A stretch of 36,726 nucleotides of DNA from assembly GCA_028291455.1 (NCBI GenBank), contig JAQGHY010000321.1, positions 1 to 36,726 on the forward strand. The letters are read 5' to 3'. Both the position numbers and the translations under genes were made by a program. Under the pieces are notes generated by a model. That model was not told where the DNA came from. It saw nothing but the letters and a program-made list of their open reading frames with translations, and did not search any database. Source of the DNA: Rubritepida sp. GTDB taxonomy: Bacteria > Pseudomonadota > Alphaproteobacteria > Acetobacterales > Acetobacteraceae. Shown piece after piece: positions 2,434-27,806 of the stretch; position 1 is the stretch's first letter; each line of letters starts with the position of its first letter.

Positions 2434-3519
2434 TCAGCGAGCGTAGCGGTGGGGATGGAAGGGCATGGCAGCGATACGGGCAGGCAGCGCCTTGTCCCGC
2501 ACCATGAGGTCGAGAGCAGTGCCGTCGGCCGCAGCGGCGCGCGCGACATAGCCCATGGCGACGGGTGCGCCGACCGAGGGGCCGAAGCCGCCGGAGGTGA
2601 TCTCGCCGATGACGGCGCCGTTCTGCTGGATGGCGGTATGCCCCCGCGCGGGCTGGCGGCCCTCGGGACGGATGCCGACGCGCAGGCGCTTCACGCCGTT
2701 GTCGAGATGGTCGCGCACAGTGTCCGCGCCGACGAAGTCCCATGCCACGCGGCGGCGCTTGCCCATGGACCAGGTGAGCGCGGCTTCGACCGGGCTCGTC
2801 GTTTCGTCGAGGTCGTTGCCGTAGAGGCAGAGGCCGGCTTCGAGCCGCAGGCTGTCGCGTGCGCCCAGGCCGGTGGGCATCACCCCGGGCATCGCCAGCA
2901 GCGCGCGGGCCAGCGCCTCGGCCTGATCGGCATGGACGGAGATTTCGAGCCCGTCCTCACCGGTATAGCCGCTGCGGCTGGCGAGGACCTGGATGCCCGC
3001 GATCTCGATCTGGGCGATGCCCATGAAGGTGAGGTCCGTCGGCACCAGCGCCGCAACGGCGGGGCCTTGCAGCGCGATCAACGCGCGATCGGCCAGCGGG
3101 CGCAGCTTCACGCCGGAGGGCAGCACGCTCTCGATGAGTGGAAGGTCAATATGCTTGCGGCTGGCGTTGACGACGAGGAACAGCCGGTCGCCGAGGTTGG
3201 CCACCATGAAGTCGTCCACGATGCCGCCGGCCTCGTTCAGCAGCAGGCCGTAGCGCTGGCGGCCGGGCTTGAGTGCCTGGACGTCCGCAGGCGTGAGCTT
3301 CTCCAGCGCGGCGGCGGCGCCTTCGCCGACGAGCTCGGCCTGGCCCATGTGGCTGACGTCGAAAAGGCCGGCCTGGGCGCGGCAATGCAGGTGCTCGGCC
3401 ATGATGCCGGCGGGGTACTGCACCGGCATGGAATAGCCGGCGAAGGGAACCATGCGCCCGCCCAATTCGCGGTGCAGCGCATCCAATGGTGTGACGAGAA
3501 GTGATTCGGTATCGGTCAC
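2434..3519 (-). CDS. gcvT: Aminomethyltransferase, glycine cleavage T protein
   Basis: Tetrahydrofolate-dependent T protein that releases ammonia from the aminomethyl-lipoyl group and forms 5,10-methylene-THF. GTG at 3519 ([19 protein letters not shown]) is chosen because it gives 361 aa, the family length, and follows a GGGGGA Shine-Dalgarno; the frame stays open further upstream but that DNA is the riboswitch. Family blocks visible include [15 protein letters not shown], the FDVSHMGQ motif, [12 protein letters not shown] and [23 protein letters not shown]. It is the first gene of gcvTHP, directly behind the tandem glycine riboswitch, so it should be induced by glycine. Confidence 0.97.
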
Positions 3520-3557
3520 GCGTCCCCCTGCCGCAGTGCGGCGGTTGAGTTTCGTGA

Positions 3558-3757
3558 CCCCCCTCTGTCCATGATACCTGAGAGATTCAGGAATGCCGGA
3601 ACATTCCCTTACTCCGTCGGTGCCGCCACCCCAGGGGATGGCGAGCTTTCCAGAGTGCCCACTCCCGCGCGGCCCTTGATGCCTGAGCGTTTCCGGGGGC
3701 CGGTTGCGCCTTCGGCGATCCGGCGCCACTGATGGTGCCGGATACTCTCCCGCGCGC
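3558..3757 (-). promoter_or_regulatory. Tandem glycine riboswitch (gcvT type)
   Basis: Read on the minus strand there are two consecutive glycine-aptamer-like units. The upstream unit (about 3657-3757) starts GGGAGAGTATC, contains GCCGAAGGCGCAA and ends near GGGCACTCTGG. The downstream unit (about 3558-3656) contains GGAGTAAGG and CTCTCAGGTATCATGGACAGAGGGG, split here by its own pairing; AATCTCTCAGG followed by GGACAGAGGGG is the classical 3' signature. Two units joined by a short linker is the usual glycine-sensing layout. It ends about 38 nt before the gcvT GTG. Boundaries are by eye and could shift by 10-15 nt. Confidence 0.9.
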
Positions 3758-3774
3758 GATGCCCAGGCCAGGAC

Positions 3775-3803
3775 TTCATGCCCGCCGATCGGAACGCGCG
3801 CAA
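3775..3803 (-). promoter_or_regulatory. Putative promoter of the gcvTHP operon
   Basis: On the minus strand TTGCGC (3798-3803) and CATGAA (3775-3780) are separated by 17 nt, placing a transcription start 10-15 nt before the first glycine aptamer. The -10 box is a weak match (3 of 6), so the position matters more than the boxes. Confidence 0.3.
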
Positions 3804-3862
3804 GCTGATTCGGCCGAAATCGGGTGGGGCCGGACCGGGGCTGCCTGGAATCCGTGCAGCCG

Positions 3863-4351
3863 CTACAGCTTCACGATCATCAGCGTCGACGAGCCGTAGG
3901 CGTAGAGCGTCTTGCCGCCATCGCCCGTCAGCCGCGCCTCGGCGATGGCGATGCGGCCGCCGCGGCTGACCACCTTGCCCTCGCAGGTCACCAGCCCGCT
4001 CTTCATGGTCAAGGCGCGGGCGTAGTTCACCTTGATTTCGAGCGTGGTGTGGCCGTAGCCGGGCTCGATGGTGGTGCGGATCGCGTTCCACAGCGCTGCG
4101 TCCAGGATCGTAGCCGCGTAGCCGCCATGGGCCATGCCGATGCTGTTGTAGTGCTGCTCGCCGATCTCGCCCTCCATGACGGCGAGGCCGGAGTCGGCGC
4201 GCACCAGCCGGATGCCCATGAGCGAGAAGATCGGGGCGCGCCGCACGCCGTCGGCGATGCCCGCGCGCATGGATTCCAGGCCGGGCAGGCCGGCATGGGG
4301 CGAAGGGCCCTCCTCGACATCCCAGGTGACGGTGTGGCTGCGGGTCTGCAT
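3863..4351 (-). CDS. PaaI-family hotdog thioesterase
   Basis: A 162-aa acyl-CoA thioesterase-like protein with a single hotdog fold. The segment YNSIGMAHGGYAATILDAALW matches the PaaI/YdiI pattern HGG-x(4)-L-D, where the Asn/His-Gly-Gly stretch and the Asp shape the CoA-ester active site. KVNYARAL and a C-terminal strand pair (GGRIAIAEARL, LYAYGSSTLMIV) complete the fold. ATG at 4351 (MQTRSHTVTWDVEEG) fits the family better than the ATG 60 nt upstream. It stands alone, divergent from the next gene. The substrate cannot be predicted; a generic hydroxybenzoyl-, phenylacetyl- or medium-chain acyl-CoA activity is possible. Confidence 0.85.
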   Translation of the reverse strand: MQTRSHTVTWDVEEGPSPHAGLPGLESMRAGIADGVRRAPIFSLMGIRLVRADSGLAVMEGEIGEQHYNSIGMAHGGYAATILDAALWNAIRTTIEPGYGHTTLEIKVNYARALTMKSGLVTCEGKVVSRGGRIAIAEARLTGDGGKTLYAYGSSTLMIVKL

Positions 4352-4458
4352 GTGTGGGCCTTCTGCATCGGAGAGACGTATCAAAGGCCGGCTCGCGCGG
4401 ATCGCCAACACGGGTTGCTCCTATTGTCGCCAAGCAACGCATCCGCCACAAATGACAA

Positions 4459-6087
4459 ATGACGGTGGGGCCGGATTTGATCTCCAAGAGCGCGAGCGGC
4501 GCGGCGCCTGTGCCGCATGACGCCTGGACCGAAGCGCGGCGCGAGATCCTCGACGCCTTCGCGGCCGGCGAGCCGCTGGTGTTGCTGACGGGCCCGGCGG
4601 GCATCGGCAAGACCTGGCTGCTTGTCGATATCGAGCATTCTCTCCGCACGCCCGATCGCGCCGTGCTGCGGCTGGAAAGCGGGGACTACGACGCCCCCAG
4701 CCTGCCGCCGGTGCTGCTGGTGGACGAGGCGGACCGGCTGGAGCCGGCGCTGCTGCTGTCCTGGGCGGTGCGCGATGGCGGCTTCACCGTGCTGGCCGGT
4801 CTGCCTGCCCTGGCCGAGGCGCTGGCGGACCTGCCGCACCGCCGCGTCGAGCTCGGGCCGGTGCGGGATCAGGACATCCCGGCCTATATCGCCGCGCGGA
4901 TGCAGGAGCTGAAGCTGCCGCCGAAGCCGCTGGATGCGGGCGCGGCGGAAGCCCTGGCCGAAGCCGCGGGCGGTGTGCCGCGCTTGCTGAACCTGCTGCT
5001 CGGCGGGAGCCTGTTGGTGGCCGGGGCGGAGGGTTCCGACCGCGTGCAGGCCGAGCATGTGCGGGAAGCCGCCGCCTTGCGCAGCGGGATGTTCGAGGAG
5101 CCGCCGGCTTACGCTGCGGCGCCCGTGGAGCCTGAGGTGGAGCCGGAGCCGCCGGCCGCCATGCCGGAGGCATCGGCTGAGCAGTCCCCGGTCTTGGCAC
5201 CGGTCGCGGTCAAGCGGCATGGCGGTCGCTGGGCATTGCTCGCCGCGCTGCTGGCGGCCGGCGGCTTGCTGGCTTGGTGGGCAGTTCAAGACCAGCCGCG
5301 CCCGCCCATCGTGACGGAGGTTGCGCCTGCCGCGATGGCGTCGGCCCCAGCTGCTCCGCCGCCGGAGGCCACGCCCGCACCCCTGCCCGACGCACCGCCC
5401 AGCCCCACCGCCGGATTGCCCTCGGGCGCGATGGTGCGGGTCATCGTCACCTATCCCCGAGGCGCGGCCGGCGCGGCACGCGCGGCGGAGGCGGTGGCGG
5501 CGCTGGAGCAAGCGGGGCTCGCCGTAAGCGCGCCCTTTCCGGTCACGCAGGCTGCCGCTGTGCCGCGCCTCAGCTACTTCTTCCGCGAGGACCGGGAGGC
5601 CGCGCTGCAAGCCCTCGGCAAGGCCGGCCCGGGGCTGGAACGGGCGGTGCCTCGGCTGGGGTTGCTGGAAGGCGCGGCGCCCCGGCCCGGCGCCATCGAG
5701 CTGGCGCTGCCGGATGCCGCCGGCGGGCCCGACGCACCGGCGCGCGCCGAAGAAACCACCGAGCCCCCTGCCCCCGCACCCGCCGTTCTGACCGCCCCCG
5801 CCGATGGCGCGGTGCTTCCGGCCGAGGCCGCGCAGCGTGGGATCACCCTGTCCTGGCAATCGGCGGGCGCGGAGCCGGGCTGTTGCTTCGTGGAGGCCGT
5901 TCGGCTGGATGGTGGCGGGGCTCTCCGACCGGTCTTCGCGGCCTACGCGGCGGCTGCGGGCCAGCAGTTGGTGCAGATCGGCCGGCCCGGGCGCTATGCC
6001 TGGCGCGTCCTGACCGTCTCGCGCGCGGCGCAGCGCTACAGCGCCAGCCCGTGGCAACACTTCGTGCTCGGTGAGGCCCAGCCATGA
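4459..6087 (+). CDS. Membrane-anchored P-loop ATPase (ExeA/GspA-like) with C-terminal periplasmic region
   Basis: 542 aa. Residues 20-205 form an ATPase module with Walker A GPAGIGKT (45-52), Walker B VLLVDEAD (85-92) and a small helical lid, resembling the MSHA/GspA/ExeA AAA group. An Ala/Pro/Glu-rich linker (215-255) leads to one membrane helix (about 258-276), then a second Pro/Ala-rich linker. Residues 325-402 (MVRVIVTYPRGAAGAARAAE, later RLSYFFRED) resemble a LytR C-terminal-like or divisome-type periplasmic domain. Residues 448-538 end in a fibronectin-like strand pattern (GRYAWRVLTVS). The family predicts a cytoplasmic ATPase coupled to an envelope-binding domain, as in ExeA. The specific role is unknown. 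Its TGA overlaps the ATG of the following lipoprotein gene. Confidence 0.7.
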   Translation: MTVGPDLISKSASGAAPVPHDAWTEARREILDAFAAGEPLVLLTGPAGIGKTWLLVDIEHSLRTPDRAVLRLESGDYDAPSLPPVLLVDEADRLEPALLLSWAVRDGGFTVLAGLPALAEALADLPHRRVELGPVRDQDIPAYIAARMQELKLPPKPLDAGAAEALAEAAGGVPRLLNLLLGGSLLVAGAEGSDRVQAEHVREAAALRSGMFEEPPAYAAAPVEPEVEPEPPAAMPEASAEQSPVLAPVAVKRHGGRWALLAALLAAGGLLAWWAVQDQPRPPIVTEVAPAAMASAPAAPPPEATPAPLPDAPPSPTAGLPSGAMVRVIVTYPRGAAGAARAAEAVAALEQAGLAVSAPFPVTQAAAVPRLSYFFREDREAALQALGKAGPGLERAVPRLGLLEGAAPRPGAIELALPDAAGGPDAPARAEETTEPPAPAPAVLTAPADGAVLPAEAAQRGITLSWQSAGAEPGCCFVEAVRLDGGGALRPVFAAYAAAAGQQLVQIGRPGRYAWRVLTVSRAAQRYSASPWQHFVLGEAQP

Positions 6088-6617
6088 ATCGCATTCCGCC
6101 CCTGCTCGTCCTGGCCGCGCTGGGGCTCGGCGCCTGCCAGACGCCGCCGGCACCCCCGCCGCGCGCAACCGCCCGGCCGGCGGGGCCGCCAGCCAGCCCA
6201 GTGCAGGGCGCTTGGTCGTTCGGGATCGTGGGCGATCGCTGCACGGCGCGGGTGACGCACCGGGATGTGGCTCTGGACGTCACCGCCGGGCCGGGCCGGC
6301 GGGCCAGCCTGGGCGTGACGGCGCCGGGCCAGGCGCTGCCCGTCAATGGCCGGTTCACCATGGCGTTCCAGGGCGGAAGCGGGTGGCAATTGGCCGGCCG
6401 GACCGATGCCCAGCGCAAGGCCGCCGCCACCCTGGCGCTGGACGATGCGGGACAGGGGCGCCTGCGCGACCTGTTGGGCGGCGGCACGCTGCGGCTGCGT
6501 GGGGCGGGCGTCTCGGCGCCGCCGCTGATCCTGCCGGATGCCGGCGTGTCCGGCCGGGACTGGTACGGCTGCGTCGCCCGGCTGACCGAGAACGAGGCGG
6601 CCGACCCGGCTCGCTGA
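6084..6617 (+). CDS. Lipoprotein of unknown function
   Basis: 177 aa with a lipoprotein signal: Met-Asn-Arg, a hydrophobic stretch LLVLAALGLGAC, and lipobox LGAC giving Cys18 as the acylated residue. A Pro/Ala-rich spacer (19-45) precedes a compact domain (47-170) with two further cysteines (in GDRC and WYGC) that could form a disulfide. The ATG overlaps the TGA of the membrane-anchored ATPase gene, so the two are co-translated and probably work together in the envelope. I do not recognise the globular domain; a small beta-barrel like the Inh/AprI inhibitors is possible but unproven. Confidence 0.7.
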   Translation: MNRIPPLLVLAALGLGACQTPPAPPPRATARPAGPPASPVQGAWSFGIVGDRCTARVTHRDVALDVTAGPGRRASLGVTAPGQALPVNGRFTMAFQGGSGWQLAGRTDAQRKAAATLALDDAGQGRLRDLLGGGTLRLRGAGVSAPPLILPDAGVSGRDWYGCVARLTENEAADPAR

Positions 6618-6626
6618 GCGGTTTCG

Positions 6627-7142
6627 TCAGCGGCTGGCGTTGGCGATGACCTCGGCGACATAGGCGGACTTGGCGTCGGTATAGGCCTCGCGGTCCTGCC
6701 GGTGGCGGACGGCCAGCTCGCGCTTGAGGGCGGCGTAGCGCGCGGCCTCGTCGGGGTCGGCGCGGAGGATGTCGCGGAAGAGGAGCAGGTTCCACATCGC
6801 TGCGGAGGGCTCGATCATGTGGACGTGGTGGGTGCGGCGCGGGGCGCGCGGCGGCAGGCCCTTCACGAAGAACAGCCGCTCGCGCCGGGGGTTCTCGGCC
6901 CAGAAGGCGTAGCCGAGGGCTTCGAGCGGGGCGACGGCGATGGAGCGGGCCTCCTCGATGGAGGAGACCGTGACGAGGATGTCGATCACGGGCTTGGCGA
7001 GGAGGCCGGGGACGGCGGTGCTGCCGAAGTGGTCGATTCGGAGGGCGAGGCCTTCGGGTAGGGCGGCTTGGAGGCGCTCGGCCTCGGCGGCGTACATGGC
7101 AGGCCAGGCGGGGTCGTGGGGGAGGAGTTGGACTTCATCCAT
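6627..7142 (-). CDS. GrpB family protein (UPF0157)
   Basis: 171 aa. The stretch IDHFGSTAVPGLLAKPVIDI is the hallmark of the GrpB/UPF0157 family, a nucleotidyltransferase-like fold; the paired acidic positions and the GS motif resemble the minimal NTase active site. It ends in an Arg/Asp-rich helix. It converges on the lipoprotein gene with a 9-nt gap, and the other side is the insertion carrying the 1303-aa gene. The biochemical role of the family is not established; some members are fused to dephospho-CoA kinase. Confidence 0.85.
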   Translation of the reverse strand: MDEVQLLPHDPAWPAMYAAEAERLQAALPEGLALRIDHFGSTAVPGLLAKPVIDILVTVSSIEEARSIAVAPLEALGYAFWAENPRRERLFFVKGLPPRAPRRTHHVHMIEPSAAMWNLLLFRDILRADPDEAARYAALKRELAVRHRQDREAYTDAKSAYVAEVIANASR

Positions 7143-7162
7143 TGGCGTTAATAACGGCAGGG

Positions 7163-7246
7163 GTGGAGACTTTCCAGCTGAAGGAATGGAAGCCTGAGTG
7201 GGAGTTGGCGCAGCAGCAGCGCATCGCGAACATGCTGCCTGGGTGA
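7163..7246 (+). pseudogene. Possible C-terminal gene remnant at the edge of the insertion
   Basis: A 27-codon frame from GTG (or 34 codons from TTG at 7142) reads VETFQLKEWKPEWELAQQQR and ends in ANMLPG, then TGA. Its composition (Trp, Gln, Glu) looks more like true coding sequence than chance in GC-rich DNA, and it stops just where the AT-rich insertion begins. It may be the tail of a gene cut off when the 1303-aa gene arrived, or a short peptide. I cannot assign a family. Confidence 0.2.
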
Positions 7247-7273
7247 CCGGCCGCCGCGATCCAGTCGTAAATC

Positions 7274-10200
7274 TTATTCCGCTTTATTATTTTTAAAAAC
7301 GACTGCATCAGATAAAAAGTGGCCGCGAAGCCAGTATTCTAAATAGCGCACAAGATAATGACAATCTCTAACTTCTAAAATAATTGCCCACAAAAGTTCT
7401 GCATAATCTTTCCGCTCTCGTACAATCTGGCGCAGCAGATCATCAGTAGCGGATTTTCGGAAATCGAGGGTAGAACTGTCATTCCAGAGGTCACGTAGGC
7501 AGTTCGTTACTGCTTCAAGGTGAGATACTGGCTCGGCCACGCGACCGCCAATCATTCGGATCAGCATTTGGAACAGATATCCCGGTGCACTACCGGAATG
7601 TGCATCCAGCTTGGCCGCTCTCGCCAACATCAAACCTGACACGCCAAGATGGTTGTGCCCAGTCTCAATGAGATTAGCTGTCCAAACGATGTATCGATCC
7701 GGCGCTATATATCTTCGTTCGAGCGCTAGCCCTAAAACCGCATGTAACCACGTGCCTCCATCCCCACCGATGGCGCGATGTAACTCCCGTATAGGGAGGT
7801 CATCCGTAATTAGCAGCATTCCGGTCTGTCGCGTGAGAATCAAGGCTTCGAAGATACCTCCACGTCCAAGCCGCAAATGCTCGCGCAGTGCCGAAGGCAG
7901 ATCATCGCTTGCAATAACCGGACAAATTAACGCGTTGGATTCGATCCACGTGATCGCTCGATCAATTTCATCCCTAGCTTCAACCACTACTCCAGCCGAA
8001 ATTTCCTGCAGGACAAGCTTTCCGTTTTCGTAGCCAGCATTTTTCTGCCCGTCTCGCGCCGAAAACTGGAGGCGCTCACGCCGTTCGCGTAAGCGATCCA
8101 GTACGCCTTGCGCGAGATGGATTGGACCACACGTCTTATGCACGCCCTCCAATGCTCCAAGACGCCATGCCGTCCAAAAGGTCCACAAATCAAGCACGCA
8201 GCCACGATGCATATTCTTGCCAACGGCCGACCGGGCGGCAACGCGCTCTTCTATATTGCCCAAAGCGACCTTGAGCTGACCGCCATTTCCAGCGATCCCC
8301 GCCGCTACCTCGATCGTATCTGAGCCAACGCGGTAAGCCAGAACGCCTAGGGGCATCGGCCCACTATGATATCCACTCTCTTCGTCCCGAACCCAATCGT
8401 GTCGCGCCTTAACTTGGGCGATTAGCTGATCGAGCCCGCCCGGCTGTTCAAAGTTCACGGACAATCGGCGGAAGCCACCTAAAATTTCAGGAAAACGCGC
8501 TTCATGGTTCTGGAGTACATAGTGGAGCCTAGCGACGTACTTGTGCCGAACTCGCTGGACGACGCCTTCCCGGCCGTCAGGCCCGACGAAGCGGGCGCCG
8601 GCCTGAAGTCCCGTAACTACACGCACGAGAGCGTGATTCGGCTCCCAAGATTCAGTGTCCAACTTACGGAGTTCGGCGCTTGGCTCGATTACAAAGAAAA
8701 CGTTCGATCCATCGTCATATGTCAAGTCTACGGCCGTGTTGGCCTGCGCAGTATTGGCATCCCAAGGCCTCGGCTCACCGCCCTGTCCTCGACCTTCATC
8801 AAGCACAAGCATCGATAAAGTCATCCAAGCACGTGACAGATCCCGATGCCTGATAAACAGTTCATATGCCGAATCTGCGGCGCGCGCTGTGAAGCCAAAA
8901 TGGCTGAGTAGGGAGGCCAGCCGAAATTGGTCAGTAGGCTCCCGCCAAGCCAGCCGCTCCAGCGGCTTCTCAAGTTCATCGAAAAGTTCCGCCGAACGGT
9001 TCAGCCGGATAAGAATTTCGATCTTTAGAAGGCGTGCCCGCGGCTGATCCGGCTTCTGTGCGAGCAGCGCGTTAACTGCGAACATGGAAGCGCTTAAATC
9101 ACCCAAATTCCAGGCGTGGGCCGATATCGTCCAAAGCGTTTCTGTATCGTTGCGAACTTCAGGTGCCGCTTCTTCTAAGGCCGCTTGGAATGCTGCATCA
9201 CGTCGGGCAGCTGCCAAGCTCTGCAAATAGAGGGACGTCATTGGGCTCTGGCGCGTCAAATCAACTTGCCCGTCAAGAAGACGGGACGCCTCCTCAGGTA
9301 GGTTTCGATTTCTGAGTTCAACGGCGATGAGATAGCGGGAAATGGTGTCGATGGTAGCGGGAACAGACAAGGCAAGCGCACGTAATCGCGTCTGAATGAC
9401 TTCATCATCCGCAGCGGTCCTCCGCTCAACTAATATTTCAAGTAGGCTGGCGCTCACATCGTTCGGGTCGAGAGCGCGAAGTCCGGACACGGCGGCATCG
9501 AGGCCCGAGCGATCCGCGAGCCGCAGTGCCAGCTCCCCGATGAGCCTCCATCGGAGTCGCTGCAGGCGCGAAGAGAGGTCAGTGGCATCAACCGCTAACG
9601 CTTCCCTCAGCCCGTCAGCAAGGTTGTTTACCGAGTGCAGCTCGGCGAGGAGGATTTGGTTCTCAGGATCGGTATCGCCATCAAGCGTCGCGATCGCTTC
9701 ATCCACACGGTTCTGCACCAGTCTCGCTACAGCGAGTAGGCGGTAAAGCTGCGGCTCTTTTCCGACTTTTGAAATACCTCGGACAAGCAACGCTTCGCTT
9801 TCCACGTGGCGTTCGCACAGCCGGAGAAGCACTGCAGCATTGTTGACATAAGCGGTGAGGTCGTGCGCATCGGCAAATCCGACATCCAGACAGTGCTCGG
9901 CCACCGCCTTCATGTCGTCGGCCGCAGAGTTTAATTCAGCGGCGGTCACAGCGCCGCGTCCACCGGGAATAATGGTATCGGATTCAATCGCCAGAGAAAG
10001 TACGGCGATCGCGCGAATGCGTTTGAAATCCGGCACGTCGGAATGCCGTCTCGCAATCCCCAGCGTGCGCTTGGCCCAATCCGGCACGTCTCTACGGCGC
10101 AGGAACTCTGCTAATCCAATGTCGGCCTGCGCCGAGCCGATCAAACGATCCGGAATAAGCGTCTCGGGATCACCTTGCCAATTCGATCGGGCCGCCGCCT

Positions 10201-11185
10201 GGAGTAGATAACCTACAGCGTGATCCACTGGTGGCTCGCTATTGAGCGCCTTCCCTGCAGCCGCCGTTGCCTCATCGAACCGCCCCTGGATGGTCCGCGC
10301 GAGTGCGAGGTTTGCGAGTGCATTCGGATCACTCGGCCGGATCGCATGTGCAGTTTCAAAGCGAGCTGCCGCTTCCGCATCACGGCCCAAATCCAATGAG
10401 ATTGAACCGAGATTAGTCTCAAGACGATAGCGCGCCCAAGGCTTGGCCGAGAGGTCTTCCTTTTTGAGAATATTGAGTAGGCCTATCTGAGCCAGAAGCG
10501 TTTGGCGTTGATCCTTGAACAGATCGCGGAATATATCGATTCTGGCATGTAATGCCGGATCTTCTTTTGCATCTGCTGTACCCTCGCGGGGTCCAACGGT
10601 CAGAGCCGCGCCACGCAGCTGCTCGATCAAATGGGTCGCAATTAGCGACGCGAATTCAATAGGTCCCCCATTGGGGTCAGAGAGATTTTGAACTGACGAA
10701 CTGCCTACTACCGAGGGCTGGAAGGCAGCGTACGCTAAGTCGTGGAGTGCGATTAATGTCTGCAGCTGGCCCCAGCCATAAACAATAATTGTCAGCTCGT
10801 GCCCTTCAGCCTGCAATAGTCGAGTGACGGCAATCGCCGCGTCAGCAGCTCCCGTGTCATCAGGCGCGGTCGTAACGAAGATAAGTTCTTTCAGTCCCAC
10901 CCTCAGCTTGAGGGCGGCACGCGCATCGGAAAGTATTTTCTTCTCTTTTAGAGGTTTTAAGATCAAGCGGCACTGGACGCCGACGAAGTGGTCAGTACGA
11001 CCACCTCGTCTACCCAAGATATCTATGCCGCCTTGGCTTTGGCCTGATCGACCGTATTCCTGCGCATGAGGATCTTGCAGTTCGGAACGGTATAGTAGGA
11101 CGCAGTTGCGCTGGAACGCCTGCCAATCCTTTGGCTTCGGAATTTCGATTGCAAGGCGCGTTGTGATCGGAACGTTATTTCTCAC
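7274..11185 (-). CDS. Giant TPR protein with Mrr-like nuclease, GreA/B-C-like and PIN-like regions; putative defence protein
   Basis: 1303 aa from GTG (MRNNVPITTRLAIEIPK) with AGGG just upstream. Residues 15-155 look like a restriction-endonuclease-fold domain: GRSGQSQGGIDILG (Asp55) followed by FVGVQCRL (71-73), matching the Mrr-type GxD...QxK pattern with Arg73 in place of Lys. Residues about 245-800 are helical TPR-like repeats. Residues about 845-915 (VVTGLQAGARFVGPDGREGV, then VRHKYVARLHYVL) resemble the GreA/GreB C-terminal domain. Residues about 995-1200 look PIN-like, with CVLDLWTFWTAW, LLITDDLPIREL (Asp1128, Asp1129) and a late ASDDLP/TAN region. The combination matches the TPR-GreAB-C-PIN proteins predicted from genome context to be immune effectors. 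Base composition and codon use are much more AT-rich than in neighbouring genes, suggesting acquisition. It is single-gene and flanked by grpB and prmA. The domain reading is by eye. Confidence 0.72.
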   Translation of the reverse strand: MRNNVPITTRLAIEIPKPKDWQAFQRNCVLLYRSELQDPHAQEYGRSGQSQGGIDILGRRGGRTDHFVGVQCRLILKPLKEKKILSDARAALKLRVGLKELIFVTTAPDDTGAADAAIAVTRLLQAEGHELTIIVYGWGQLQTLIALHDLAYAAFQPSVVGSSSVQNLSDPNGGPIEFASLIATHLIEQLRGAALTVGPREGTADAKEDPALHARIDIFRDLFKDQRQTLLAQIGLLNILKKEDLSAKPWARYRLETNLGSISLDLGRDAEAAARFETAHAIRPSDPNALANLALARTIQGRFDEATAAAGKALNSEPPVDHAVGYLLQAAARSNWQGDPETLIPDRLIGSAQADIGLAEFLRRRDVPDWAKRTLGIARRHSDVPDFKRIRAIAVLSLAIESDTIIPGGRGAVTAAELNSAADDMKAVAEHCLDVGFADAHDLTAYVNNAAVLLRLCERHVESEALLVRGISKVGKEPQLYRLLAVARLVQNRVDEAIATLDGDTDPENQILLAELHSVNNLADGLREALAVDATDLSSRLQRLRWRLIGELALRLADRSGLDAAVSGLRALDPNDVSASLLEILVERRTAADDEVIQTRLRALALSVPATIDTISRYLIAVELRNRNLPEEASRLLDGQVDLTRQSPMTSLYLQSLAAARRDAAFQAALEEAAPEVRNDTETLWTISAHAWNLGDLSASMFAVNALLAQKPDQPRARLLKIEILIRLNRSAELFDELEKPLERLAWREPTDQFRLASLLSHFGFTARAADSAYELFIRHRDLSRAWMTLSMLVLDEGRGQGGEPRPWDANTAQANTAVDLTYDDGSNVFFVIEPSAELRKLDTESWEPNHALVRVVTGLQAGARFVGPDGREGVVQRVRHKYVARLHYVLQNHEARFPEILGGFRRLSVNFEQPGGLDQLIAQVKARHDWVRDEESGYHSGPMPLGVLAYRVGSDTIEVAAGIAGNGGQLKVALGNIEERVAARSAVGKNMHRGCVLDLWTFWTAWRLGALEGVHKTCGPIHLAQGVLDRLRERRERLQFSARDGQKNAGYENGKLVLQEISAGVVVEARDEIDRAITWIESNALICPVIASDDLPSALREHLRLGRGGIFEALILTRQTGMLLITDDLPIRELHRAIGGDGGTWLHAVLGLALERRYIAPDRYIVWTANLIETGHNHLGVSGLMLARAAKLDAHSGSAPGYLFQMLIRMIGGRVAEPVSHLEAVTNCLRDLWNDSSTLDFRKSATDDLLRQIVRERKDYAELLWAIILEVRDCHYLVRYLEYWLRGHFLSDAVVFKNNKAE

Positions 11186-11253
11186 TCAACCCTGCTATCG
11201 ACGACAATGTACTGCCTATCAATTCGATGCCGTTCGACATAGTACTTTGCTGC

Positions 11254-12144
11254 TTATAAAATGTCCTGCTTCCTCAACACCAACGTACACCACGGCTTCA
11301 AATCAATACGCCGCTCCAGCACCAGCCCCGCCCGCCGATGCGCAACCAGCACCATCCGCGCCTGCGTCCCCAACAACCCCGCCAGGATCGCGCGCCCGCC
11401 CGGCGCCAGATGCGCGCCCAGGTTCCCCGCCATCGCACACAGCGGCCGCGCCAAGATGTTCGCGAAGATCAGGTCGTACGGCGCCCCCCGCGTGATCGCG
11501 CGGTGCCGGTACCCATCCGCCAGGATCGCGCGCATGCGCGGCTTCAGCCCGTTCATCGCGGCGTTCTCCTCCGCCACGCGGACGGACCACGGCTCGATAT
11601 CCGTGGCCAGCGCCTTGATGTGCCACAGCTTCGCCGCCCCCATTGCCAGGATGCCGCTGCCCGAGCCCACGTCCAGCACGTTGCGCGGCCGCCGCGCCAG
11701 CCCCTCCAGCGCCATCAGGCAGCCCTGCGTCGAGGCATGCTCGCCCGAGCCGAAGGCCAGACCGGCATCGAGCGTGAGCGCGATGCGCCCATAGGTCGGG
11801 CGCGCCGGCACATGCGTCGGGCGGATGAGGAAGCGCTTGCCGATATCGGCCTCCGGGAAGGCCTCGATGGTCCGCGCCAGCCAGCCCTCGGATTCCGTGA
11901 GCGAGCGCGTCATCGGCGCCTCGTGGCCCGAAAGCCCGGCGGCCAGCGCCAGCGCCGCCACCAGGCAGCCCTGGTCGGCCTTGGTGTCGCGCACCGCCTC
12001 GATGCGCCAGGTGTCGGTGGCCTCGTCGCGGAACAGCGAGACGGTGGCGCTCACCGCCAGCAGCGCGGCCTCGTAGGAGGGCACGGCCTCTTCCGGCAGC
12101 TGGTCGAGCACCAGGGTTTCGAGCTGGGCGGGATGCTTCTTCAT
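11254..12144 (-). CDS. prmA: Ribosomal protein L11 methyltransferase
   Basis: SAM-dependent methyltransferase, 296 aa, that trimethylates ribosomal protein L11. The segment TLDAGLAFGSGEHASTQGCL precedes motif I VLDVGSGSGILAMGAAKLW, and the NPPY-type loop reads LIFANILARPLCAM; both are diagnostic of PrmA. The N-terminal third is the diverged L11-binding domain. The ATG overlaps the uvrD TGA (ATGA), so it is translated with uvrD. The last few residues (QDIL) run into the AT-rich boundary of the insertion, so the extreme C-terminus may differ from relatives, but the catalytic domain is whole. Confidence 0.92.
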   Translation of the reverse strand: MKKHPAQLETLVLDQLPEEAVPSYEAALLAVSATVSLFRDEATDTWRIEAVRDTKADQGCLVAALALAAGLSGHEAPMTRSLTESEGWLARTIEAFPEADIGKRFLIRPTHVPARPTYGRIALTLDAGLAFGSGEHASTQGCLMALEGLARRPRNVLDVGSGSGILAMGAAKLWHIKALATDIEPWSVRVAEENAAMNGLKPRMRAILADGYRHRAITRGAPYDLIFANILARPLCAMAGNLGAHLAPGGRAILAGLLGTQARMVLVAHRRAGLVLERRIDLKPWCTLVLRKQDIL

Positions 12145-14348
12145 GCGGGCTCCACGAAGCGGTCGAGCACGCGCTTGGTGCCGGCCCGCTCGAATTCGAT
12201 TTCCAGCTTGTCGTCGTCCACGCCGGTCACTCGGCCATAGCCGAATTTCTGGTGGAAGACGCGGGTGCCGACGGAAAAGGCTTTCTCGCGCTCCGGCCGC
12301 TGGTCGACCTCCCATGCGCCGGCCTCGATCACGCGGGGGCGGCGCATGGAGGAGAGCGGCGCGCCGGCGGAGAAGACCGAGGAGGGGATGCGCGGGGCCT
12401 GCTTGATGCCGCCTTCACGCATGATCTCGCTTTCCGGCAGCTCCTCCAGGAAGCGCGAGGGGATGGAGTTCACCCAATTGCCGTAGATGCGCCGGTTGGC
12501 GGCATGGCTGATGGTGCAGTACTTGCGCGCCCGGGTGATGCCGACATAGGCGAGCCGCCGCTCCTCCTCCAGGCTCTTGGCGCCGCCCTCGTCGAGGCTG
12601 CGCTGGCTGGGGAAGAGGCCCTCCTCCCAGCCCGGCAGGAAGACCATGTCGAATTCGAGCCCCTTGGCGGCGTGCAGCGTCATCAGCCCCACTTTTGCGC
12701 CCTCGGAATTGTCGTCGTTCTCCATGACGAGCGCGATGTGTTCGAGGAAGGCGCCGAGCGTGGCGAAATCCGTCATGGCGCGCAGCAGTTCTTTGAGGTT
12801 GTCGAGGCGGCCGGCGGCCTCGATGCTGCGGTCGTTCTTCCACATGTCGGTGTAGCCGCTCTCCTCCAGGACCTGGGCGGCGACGACGACGTGGCCTTCC
12901 TTCTCCAGCGCGGCGTTCCAGCGGGTCATGCCCTCCAGCAGCTCACGCAGGGCGGCGCGGGGGCGGGGGCGGATGGCGTCGGTCTGGATCAGCCGCTCGG
13001 CGGCGAAGCGTAGCGGGACCTGTTCGTCGCGGCTCATGCGGTGGAGGGCGGCGATCGCGGTGTCGCCCAGGCCGCGCTTGGGGGTGTTGACGATGCGCTC
13101 GAAGGCGAGGTCGTCGGCGGGCTGGGAGAGGGCGCGGAAATAGGCGATGGCGTCGCGGATCTCCTGCCGCTCGTAGAACTTGGCGCCGCCGTAGACCCGG
13201 TAGGGGATGTTGAGCGTGATCAGCCGCTCCTCGAAGGCGCGGGTCTGGAAGCCGGCGCGTACCAGGATCGCGATCTCGCTGAGGTTCTGGCCGTCCCGCC
13301 GCGCCTCCTCGATGCGGCCGCCGACCATGCGGGCCTCCTCGTCACTGTCCCAGAGCGAGACGACGCGGACGCGCTCGCCCGAAGCGTCCTTGCGGCCGGA
13401 GCGCAGGGTCTTGCCCAGCCGCCCCTCGTTGCGCGCGATCAGGCCGGAGGCGGCGGAGAGGATGGGTTGGGTGGAGCGGTAGTTCTGTTCCAGCCGGACG
13501 ATGACCGCGCCGGGGAAATCGCGCTCGAAGCGCAGGATGTTCTCGATCTCCGCACCCCGCCAGGAATAGATCGACTGGTCGTCGTCGCCGACGCAGCAGA
13601 TGTTCTTGTGCCCCTGCGCGAGCAGCCGCAGCCAGAGGTACTGGACCAGGATGGTGTCCTGATACTCGTCCACGAGGATGTAGCGGAAGGTGCGGTGGTA
13701 GCGCTCCAGCACATCGGGCTGGGTGCGGAGGATTTCGGTGATGTGCAGCGGCAGGTCGCCGAAGTCGCAGGCGTTCAGCGTCACCAGCCGGGCCTGGTAG
13801 GCGGCGTAGAGCTTTTCGGCGCGGTTGTTCGCGTAGTCCGAGGTTTCGGCGACGGGGATGCGATCCGGCGTGAGGCCGCGGTCCTTCCAGCGCTGGATCA
13901 CCGACATCAGCCCGTTCGGCGGCCAGCGCTTGAGGTCGATCCCCTCGGCGTCCATCACCTGCTTGAGCAGCCGCTGCTGGTCGTCCGTGTCGAGGATGGT
14001 GAAGCTGGAGGTCAGGCCGACGAGCTCCGCATGCCGCCGCAGCATTCGCGCGGCCAGGGCATGGAAGGTGCCGAGCCACAGCCCCTCCACCGGGCGCTGC
14101 AGGATGGAGCCCACCCGCTCGCGCATCTCCCGCGCCGCCTTGTTGGTGAAGGTGACGGAGAGGACCTGGTGCGGCTGGGCACGGCCGGTCATCAGCAGAT
14201 GGGCGAAGCGCGTGGTCAGCACCCGCGTCTTGCCGGTGCCGGCGCCGGCGAGCACCAGCAGCGGCCCGTCGAGGGTTTCGACGGCCGCGCGCTGCTCGGC
14301 GTTCAGGCGTGCGAGGTAATCATGGGGGGGGGCCGGTGGTGCGTTCAC
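12141..14348 (-). CDS. uvrD: UvrD/PcrA-type DNA helicase
   Basis: 735-aa superfamily 1A 3'-5' helicase for nucleotide excision/mismatch repair and removal of stalled complexes. The order is: Q motif [11 protein letters not shown], Walker A AGAGTGKT (Lys40), motif Ia [14 protein letters not shown], motif [10 protein letters not shown], motif [16 protein letters not shown], motif IV EQNYRST, motif [14 protein letters not shown], and motif [11 protein letters not shown]. It ends with a PcrA-like Tudor tail, [18 protein letters not shown] at 14348 is chosen because the protein then begins just before the Q motif and the promoter boxes sit 7 nt upstream; the longer open frame would cover that promoter. 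There is no Shine-Dalgarno, so translation is probably leaderless. Coupled to prmA downstream. Confidence 0.94.
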
Positions 14349-25757: not shown

Positions 25758-26894
25758 TCAACGTGGCTGGATAATCGTATCGTCGCTCGGCTTCCTGTTT
25801 CCGTTTCCCCACGTGTTTTGAATGAAGCCATCTCGGGCCAGTTGAAGGCAAATGTCTTTGATATTCGTTTCGCGGAGCATATGAGCCTGAAGCGCAAAGT
25901 CGACAATGGTCGAAAATCGTACGCCGCCCCTCTCAGCAAGAAATACTCTTATATCGGCCGCAGCAATCTTCTTCTGCTGGATAACCACATCGTCAATCGT
26001 CGCTTCCTGCTGAGCATCATATCCTGGGAATAGTTCGTCGACCCCCGTAAGGTCTTCTCGCCTTCTCTCTTTTGCTGACACGCGGTTCCTTGCGTGCTCC
26101 TTTAACGCCTCATGCTCGATCCGACGAAAGGCCTTAAGGCCCTCCCGGCTTTTCGTGCCGTAAGCAAGGAAGAAGTGCGGCCGATCAATAGTGTTTTTAT
26201 CGATTTTAGTAGAAATTACATATTGAAATCTACCCTCCCGCTTAAGCGTTTCACGAAAAAGCTTTTCGACTGCGGCTCCGCGCGGAAGGGACTGGTCAAG
26301 ACGCTGATGCCAACCAGCGCCCCCGAGAATAGGATCAAGGGACGCAATCGTGTTCACGTCTTGACTTGAGACAAATCTATTTACAAAATCATACATAAAA
26401 TTTATGAGAACTTCGCACTTATCTGAATCAAAAATAGATTTGATTTTGTGGAAAGGATAACCTGTCCATCCTGTCGGATCGATAAATATGAGCGGAAAGT
26501 TACCGTTAATGATATTTTTTATTTGCTCAACCGCGTCTTCAAACTTACCGAAGTAAGTTTGGATTTCAAACTTTCCAGAAACGCTGCGATGCGGAGCAAC
26601 GGCGTTTTCAAGTTTTTTATATGCAACAGCGTCGCTTTCTGAGAAAAAACACCGGATGTGTCTTAGGTTCCCGGTATCTTGCAGAATTCTTTTTTGCGCG
26701 TCTTTTAATACGTCAATTGCTATCATGAACGAGGTATCGGAAAAGTCACTCGTTCTTGATTGCCAGGGGCCTGAGAAGCCATCAATATATGTTACATCCC
26801 AGCTCCGAAGAACCTTGAATGCTAACGCCTGGAGATAGCGGCGCAGAATAAAATGCTTTGCCTTCGTTTGCTCTCGCTGCAAATATACGTCCAT
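25758..26894 (-). CDS. TcmP-like protein (three-Cys-motif partner)
   Basis: 378 aa. Residues 1-22 carry MDVYLQREQTKAKHFILRRY. YIDGFSGPW (36-44) is a Gly-rich motif resembling a methyltransferase-like motif I, FIDPTGWTGYP (137-147) a D-P-P-x motif, and LINFMYDFVNRF (163-174) follows. The C-terminus (about 300-370) reads as a winged-helix-like segment (RGGVRFSTIVDFAL and LARDGFIQNTW). These match the TcmP family, found next to genes with a three-Cys motif, and here it follows such a gene by 17 nt with GGAGA before its ATG. No experimental function is known to me. The gene is conspicuously AT-rich for this chromosome. Confidence 0.8.
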   Translation of the reverse strand: MDVYLQREQTKAKHFILRRYLQALAFKVLRSWDVTYIDGFSGPWQSRTSDFSDTSFMIAIDVLKDAQKRILQDTGNLRHIRCFFSESDAVAYKKLENAVAPHRSVSGKFEIQTYFGKFEDAVEQIKNIINGNFPLIFIDPTGWTGYPFHKIKSIFDSDKCEVLINFMYDFVNRFVSSQDVNTIASLDPILGGAGWHQRLDQSLPRGAAVEKLFRETLKREGRFQYVISTKIDKNTIDRPHFFLAYGTKSREGLKAFRRIEHEALKEHARNRVSAKERRREDLTGVDELFPGYDAQQEATIDDVVIQQKKIAAADIRVFLAERGGVRFSTIVDFALQAHMLRETNIKDICLQLARDGFIQNTWGNGNRKPSDDTIIQPR

Positions 26895-26911
26895 CTAATT
26901 CTCCGGCATAT

Positions 26912-27664
26912 TCATGAGGCGAATTTCGCAGCCAGATTCTTTGTTAGGTCGGGATACTCACTCCACTCGCGGCCTTTAAGCAAGCGCCCTCCAGTTTTCG
27001 GCCGTATACCGCCCCACTGCTTAAAGAAAAAAGCTACCTTATCTGCCTTGCATTGGTCGAGGATTTCTAAGACCCACTTCTCTTCGATTGGACGAGAACG
27101 CGGACCGCTTTCGCCGCCAACTATAACCCAGTCAATCCCTGCCAAGCTAATTGGCCCAACCGAAGCCAACAAGGGCTCAAACGATACGAACTTAACAGAT
27201 GCGTTAGCCGACTTTAGATGACTAAGTCGTACCGTGTTTTTTCGATCTTCGATAGAAACGCCCAACCAGATGTGCGATGGCGCGACGCCATCAATATATC
27301 TTTTCTTGAGGTATTTCCCCATCAATGAGCTTCTTTTAGTTAATACTTGATATGTGTGCCAAGCGGCTTTTTCCATAGTATCAAAAACAGCGTCAATAAA
27401 ATTGTCTGGTACGTCTTTGTGGAAAAGATCGCTCATCGAATTGACGAAGATTCTGCGAGGTTGCTTCCATAACAGCGGCTGTTGGAGCCTCTGCGGCCGA
27501 AGCATTAGATCGAATCCACGTTCAAAAGGGTGTCCTTTGACCCCGCGAAATCTCTCTGAAAACCGTTCAGCGTAACAAAAGTCGCAGCCCGCCGTGACCT
27601 TGGAACAGCCGGTCACCGGATTCCATGTCGAATCGGTCCATTCGATATGCGTCAACTCAGCCAT
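26912..27664 (-). CDS. Gp37/Gp68-family three-Cys-motif protein (DUF5131-like)
   Basis: 250 aa from ATG at 27664 (MAELTHIEWTDSTWNPVTGC), with AAGG 6 nt upstream; the ATG 33 nt earlier lacks a ribosome-binding site. Cys20, Cys27 and Cys30 form C-x6-C-x2-C followed by YAERFSERF, the three-Cys motif of phage Gp37/Gp68-like proteins, which may hold an Fe-S cluster of radical-SAM type. Other blocks: RRIFVNSMSDLFHKDVPD, YQVLTKRSSLM, IWLGVSIEDR, FVSFEPLLASVGPI, DWVIVGGESGPRSRPIE and FFFKQWGG, all typical of the family. AT-rich like its partner TcmP; together they look acquired. Confidence 0.85.
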   Translation of the reverse strand: MAELTHIEWTDSTWNPVTGCSKVTAGCDFCYAERFSERFRGVKGHPFERGFDLMLRPQRLQQPLLWKQPRRIFVNSMSDLFHKDVPDNFIDAVFDTMEKAAWHTYQVLTKRSSLMGKYLKKRYIDGVAPSHIWLGVSIEDRKNTVRLSHLKSANASVKFVSFEPLLASVGPISLAGIDWVIVGGESGPRSRPIEEKWVLEILDQCKADKVAFFFKQWGGIRPKTGGRLLKGREWSEYPDLTKNLAAKFAS

Positions 27665-27806
27665 AATGAACCTTAGAACAAAAAAAGAACGATGCAAGCG
27701 GCAGCCTCGGCTGCTCCAATCGTCACCTGTTCCGTTGCGTTTTAAACATCGTGGTCGGCTCTAACGACAGATACGGCCCTAAACAGCACCACTACGACAT
27801 TTTCCC

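Follow-up and report, generated by a model that had tools for sequence, protein, structure and literature searches.

The stretch analysed here, referred to as the window, spans 36,726 nucleotides (positions 1 to 36,726) of contig JAQGHY010000321.1 of Rubritepida sp. (assembly GCA_028291455.1). On its minus strand lies a gene for a protein of 1303 amino acids (7274..11185, stop codon included) that, by its sequence, is a member of the TPR-GreA/B-C-PIN conflict system with an N-terminus of the restriction endonuclease (REase) type, and that was apparently acquired by horizontal transfer. The system has been published (eLife 2021 e70394, PMC8195603; Pfam PF20698), and the gene is a well-formed, foreign and patchily distributed member of this predicted immune family, ordinary in its architecture. 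The new element is that the N-terminal nuclease site is altered throughout the clade and, to judge from substitution ratios, under strong constraint, which we regard as a real peculiarity.

Architecture of the TPR-GreA/B-C-PIN gene

In the passages of PMC8195603 that describe the system, its constant part consists of TPR, GreA/B-C and PIN, its genes are mostly standalone, and its N-terminus is either EAD10 or any of 13 alternative effectors, which include REase and HNH. The window protein shares this order of variable N-terminal effector, TPR, GreA/B-C and PIN. A first-pass annotation had given the same order, starting with a nuclease-like part, and pointed to the N-terminal nuclease fusion as a second potential effector; a new architecture is rejected, since REase and HNH effectors at this position already appear in those passages.

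The Mrr-like REase-fold domain occupies residues 8-158 (10712..11164; all features of the gene are on the minus strand). Mrr_cat matches it marginally (Pfam, E=0.047, below cut-off) and passes its cut-off in L087 and L088, two of the aligned relatives; one of five models, the confident one, carries the REase fold, and both lines bear out the Mrr-like nuclease region first annotated. The closest solved structural match of this model is the N-terminus of Avs4, an antiviral STAND protein (PDB 8dgf); a sequence search of solved structures with the N-terminal domain returned nothing useful. The TPR-like helical region follows (residues 211-790, 8816..10555). The earlier estimate was about 550 residues of TPR-like helices: TPR_2 and TPR_19 exceed the Pfam cut-off inside residues 267-323, but the remaining helices are matched weakly by Pfam and NCBIfam, the NCBIfam matches being TPR-like, far under their cut-offs, with a weak TPR at 627-777. 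Between TPR and PIN, a GreA/B C-terminal-like domain (residues 806-882, 8540..8770) is supported by structure and by its alignment with two segments, of ten aligned, that exceed the Pfam cut-off, and Gre factors fill ranks 1-9 of the structural matches to the model of the window's segment. This domain had been predicted correctly but placed too far along, at 845-920.

PIN-TPR-GreABC (PF20698) matches residues 997-1137 (E=6.9e-21, above cut-off; 7775..8197), which define the PIN core more narrowly than the residues 995-1200 proposed before. The call comes mainly from Pfam. The models give a nuclease fold at the N-terminus and a weak one at the C-terminus, so that the absence of such a fold from both ends, which would have counted against the first-pass annotation, is not what was found. 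Acidic positions of the PIN domain are conserved in a 31-row alignment of relatives: D999 in 29/29 rows, D1030 in 26/28, D1129 in 27/28, and position 1113 is D or E in 28/28 (E in the window). The PIN domain looks intact and is probably the working nuclease of the protein. Among the acidic residues singled out at the outset, Asp55 and Asp1129 are conserved, but Asp1128 is not. Residues 1159-1303 (7277..7711) form a C-terminal helical region without an assigned family, with low-Z helical-repeat matches. Where Avs4 carries a STAND NTPase, TPR-like helices and the Gre and PIN parts stand in the window protein, in which Pfam detects no NTPase family; the likeness to Avs4 lies in the N-terminal REase fold.

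The altered N-terminal nuclease site

The standard active site of the REase superfamily consists of E, D and QxK, which correspond here to E25, D55, Q71 and K73 in the wider family. In the 31-row alignment, from which the duplicates L083 (= L005) and L076 (= L098) were dropped and L101, L104 and the second piece of L078 were left out, the N-terminal domains form two sets; four rows (L012, L099, L080 and L077) have no readable REase columns. The nine rows of the window's clade, window included, read Q25, D55, Q71, R73 and K80, and the other REase-type rows have K73 in 18/18 and E25 in 17/18. A tenth case of Q25/R73/K80 is L007, cut by a contig end after residue 152, so that all ten intact N-termini of the clade (10/10) agree at these positions. 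The decayed remnant L008 agrees as well, its residue 71 being Pro. K73 is also found in L109 and L110 and in L104 and L077, the latter two read by eye later, which brings the wider relatives to K73 in 22/22 and E25 in 20/21; the relatives are not independent, a number of the 22 K73 rows being closely related. In the window the codons concerned are CAG for Gln25 (11111..11113), CGC for Arg73 (10967..10969) and AAA for Lys80 (10946..10948), the last residue being invariant in the clade and non-Lys in the wider REase-type rows. The window protein therefore keeps D55 and Q71, has Q25 and R73 in place of the expected Glu and Lys, and departs from the standard active site; its N-terminal domain is probably no longer a standard E/D/QxK enzyme.

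This alteration does not look like plain decay, because the protein's lowest ratio of non-synonymous to synonymous substitution rates (dN/dS) and its highest identity are found in the same domain. In two close pairs sharing L002, dN/dS is 0.050 and 0.042 in the REase domain, compared with 0.109 and 0.094 in TPR, 0.286 and 0.090 in GreA/B-C, and 0.111 in PIN (one pair only); where the window itself is one of the pair, dS is largely saturated. Identity to the window peaks in the N-terminal domain in 8/8 clade rows. The altered site, Q25/R73/K80, is what sets the clade apart from the system as described in the text of PMC8195603 with which it was compared.

These data bear on an alternative in which each end of the protein is an active nuclease and the Mrr-like domain cuts DNA via Arg73 or a displaced Lys80, so that a single chain would combine a DNase with an RNase. 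The low dN/dS just given and the retention of D55 and Q71 speak for it, as does K80, which is clade-invariant and, in the model, lies just ahead of the helix after the Q71-R73 strand; opposed to this are the replacements of E25 and K73 throughout the clade. We consider this alternative possible, although doubtful. The two potential effectors per chain of the first-pass annotation become questionable for the same reason, since every intact N-terminus of the clade has replacements at two of the four positions expected in the active site.

The sequences further indicate that the core persists under an N-terminal module that is swapped. The congener protein L012 is the clade's closest relative in the core (about 41% identity, with a node support of 1.000 in a core tree built without L003, L092, L078 and L077), and since its N-terminus is unrelated to that of the window, the N-terminus appears exchangeable on a constant core; no Pfam family matches the L012 N-terminus at E up to 1. 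Two weak or partial members match the window solely at the N-terminus (L104) or solely at the C-terminus (L101). An N-terminal search of a class sample found relatives in 3/384 genomes besides that of the window; R73 is absent from both of the proteins that were read among these, L109 and L110. These two (L109 446-6661, minus strand; L110 567-4799, plus strand) are HTH_upst_double_PIN proteins (PF24407), which resemble the window protein in combining a QCK-type N-terminus and a PF20698 match on one chain, and differ from it in that HTH_upst_double_PIN precedes PIN, the frames are 2072 and 1411 amino acids long, and K73 is kept; of the two, Mrr_cat is above cut-off in L109 only. Worn copies also occur: a truncated relative that ends next to IS66-family genes (L092 7938-11057), the short remnant with a stop already mentioned (L008 8001-8261), and a relative split into two frames (L078 1967-5956).

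Origin, distribution and neighbourhoods

The open reading frame (ORF) has a GTG start and is open throughout, while the plus-strand frame of the same interval is interrupted by many stops; the strand had been missing from the first-pass annotation. GC content is 0.537-0.572 across the four 1-kb bins of the gene and, on the two flanks, 0.746 (6001-7000) and 0.659 (11001-12000, a bin that includes 185 nt of the gene), and its stop-to-stop GC content at third codon positions (GC3) is 0.547, compared with 0.82 in the grpB and prmA frames alike. One copy is present in the host assembly, which is about 90% complete. Pfam verified both neighbours: prmA lies upstream, 68 nt ahead of the start codon (11254..12315, minus strand; PrmA E=1.1e-53), and grpB downstream (6627..7142, minus strand; GrpB E=3.5e-50). 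The description of a single large gene standing alone between these two genes, with a composition unlike either, is thus confirmed, and its isolation fits the mostly standalone trait of the system.

Homologues, counted as PF20698 matches above cut-off with the window genome excluded, are rare: 2/20 congeners, 0/39 further relatives, 6/298 genomes of an order sample (one being a congener already counted) and 9/397 genomes of a phylum sample. Matches also occur in 21 plasmid records. A housekeeping core gene is rejected on this patchy distribution, and homologues that are ubiquitous and host-like in composition, which would have spoken against an immune candidate, are not what was found. In the phage records searched no relatives were present; among viral contigs, five stretches fitting a pattern proved not to be relatives, the single-protein query used there finding close relatives only.

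Across the genus, window genome included, prmA is found in 21/21 genomes and grpB in 3/21, and the gene is missing at the prmA site in all 13 congeneric sites examined (of 20), the copy of G011 being located on another contig than its prmA site. Aligned with the window, G008, G015 and G016 have spacers of about 17, 22 and 62 nt where the flanking blocks join, and in G011 and G020 the spacer measures about 110-115 nt. In G007, prmA and grpB lie 3.0 kb apart, and this interval holds two frames, with GC3 values of 0.50 and 0.55; G006 has a 269-amino-acid frame of GC3 0.457 at the prmA-flanking spot, and G012 a different insert of host-like GC (0.69). As congeners carry differing inserts or short joins there, the spot 3' of prmA varies. 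Near the gene there are just short imperfect repeat pairs and no specific integration signal, and a Pfam scan of nine window ORFs revealed no integrase adjoining it. Low-GC3 frames occupy the prmA-flanking spot in two congeners (L044 4221-5854 and L049 3623-4429), where PADLOC did not match the one scanned from each, and one frame of L044 has a weak resemblance to 2-oxoglutarate-dependent hydroxylases. Between uvrD and prmA, two congeners have about 2.1 kb that is missing from the window (L046 ~3334-5512, L050 ~6934-9045).

We examined the neighbourhoods of the plasmid relatives in 14 of the 21 matching records. PADLOC, applied to name-selected genes of the hit stretches and not to controls, recognised defence genes in six of the 14: GajA and GajB in L094, L096 and L102; GajB together with SduA in L097; the cyclase and phospholipase of CBASS in L099; and, in the close-clade relative L093, PycC along with a TIR effector and an E1-E2 protein. 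Defence product names (TIR, SIR2, Shedu, CBASS, Abi; toxin-antitoxin names excluded on both sides) occur in 5/14 hit stretches and in 0/14 controls, which were equal-length stretches elsewhere on the same 14 plasmids (Fisher two-sided p=0.041). In the other eight hit stretches no such names were seen. The immune role that had been suggested from context is therefore supported by the company of the plasmid relatives, not by that of the window copy.

This evidence also bears on two non-immune explanations. The first is a host factor of transcription or RNA quality control, a Gre-PIN protein clearing stalled polymerases; its Gre and PIN parts and the position of the window copy between housekeeping genes would suit such a role, against which stand the patchy distribution, the foreign composition, the 21 plasmid records, the defence neighbours and the N-terminal exchange, and we consider it improbable. 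The second, a selfish maintenance or addiction gene whose PIN toxin is restrained within its own chain, we judge very improbable: the 14 plasmid stretches show no common antitoxin-like partner, the window copy sits in a chromosomal-looking context, and Gre and effector modules would not be expected there.

Three plasmid QCK-type relatives (L095 4663-10008, L100 4642-9984 and L097 5104-9972) have in common a DnaD/HTH-like gene and a small gene; the latter, Abi_2-like in L095 and without a match in L097, ends about 9 nt ahead of the TPR-GreA/B-C-PIN gene, so that the genes may form an operon. In the window itself there is a second low-GC island (25758-27697, minus strand; bins of 0.458 and 0.510) with a candidate defence pair, namely TcmP (TIGR04474, 9.2e-40; PADLOC candidate PDC-M30A, 4.2e-16) and a DUF5131 protein (PF07505, 6.6e-93; PADLOC candidates PDC-M41B, 9.5e-102, and PDC-M30B, 8.4e-101).

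A proposed mode of action

For the family, PMC8195603 proposes, in the passages on this system, that the protein acts through GreA/B-C on RNA polymerase (RNAP) hijacked for the transcription of viral DNA, that PIN cuts the extruded transcript, and that the N-terminal effector acts if the PIN step fails; a mechanism is thus in print, contrary to the first-pass annotation, which knew of none. We lean towards reading the window gene as a horizontally acquired single-gene immune protein of this system, acting as follows. The protein would wait in an autoinhibited state; its GreA/B-C domain would dock at the RNAP secondary channel, and the TPR-like scaffold would pass on a cue of infection or of polymerase state. 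The C-terminal PIN would cut RNA, either transcripts extruded from stalled polymerase or RNA generally. The N-terminal Mrr-like domain would be an exchangeable effector module whose site has been remodelled in the clade (Q25, D55, Q71, R73, K80), and which may be DNA-binding and regulatory, or a displaced-lysine nuclease, rather than a standard E/D/QxK nuclease. The analysis itself shows the architecture of the protein, its conservation and patchy occurrence, the exchange of its N-terminus, its defence context and, at the confidence given for each, its folds. Anti-phage function, RNAP docking, RNA cleavage and autoinhibition are what we infer.

Several observations weigh against it. The D-S-P loop of the Gre C-terminal domain takes part in RNAP contact. 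Compared with the C-terminal domains of GreA, GreB and Gfh1, the window protein has N-H-A at this loop, and domain searches of the protein do not show the Gre N-terminal coiled coil; much of the family reads x-H-P at the GreB D-S-P positions. The N-H-A loop makes docking the weakest step, although the Gre domain may still point to RNAP. The window's own GreA/B-C segment has no Pfam match. The C-terminal model has a mean predicted local distance difference test score (pLDDT) of 60.7, with the PIN region poorly predicted, and no match by Foldseek alone at E<=0.001; mean pLDDT is 66.8 for the confident N-terminal model and 41.5-44.2 for the other four. PADLOC has no model that matches the protein at E up to 1, the plasmid controls were judged by names and not blind, and the neighbours of the window copy are housekeeping genes.

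Among the literature matches listed, we found no experimental test of the TPR-GreA/B-C-PIN family, and the system is not treated in the portions of PMC13092281, PMC7159879, PMC12839542 and PMC10907252 that were compared. A validated defence by a single protein with PIN exists in DS-3, which has no cognate antitoxin and needs its catalytic residues for phage defence; its PIN is split between N- and C-terminus, and the portion of the source that describes it mentions no Gre or REase part (PMC13092281).

As a tentative idea, the clade's Mrr-like effector may have been rebuilt (Q25, R73, a new invariant Lys80) and become the most constrained part of the protein, either as a displaced-lysine REase or as a non-cutting DNA sensor that licenses the RNAP-docked PIN RNase. 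If true, an effector would have turned receptor inside an immune protein family. The QCK-type congener protein L013 and the sister protein L012, with another N-terminus, offer natural comparison partners. The window copy bears on whether a Gre-fused PIN RNase acts on transcription in infected cells, and on whether an REase fold that lacks the standard lysine may still cut or has become a sensor.

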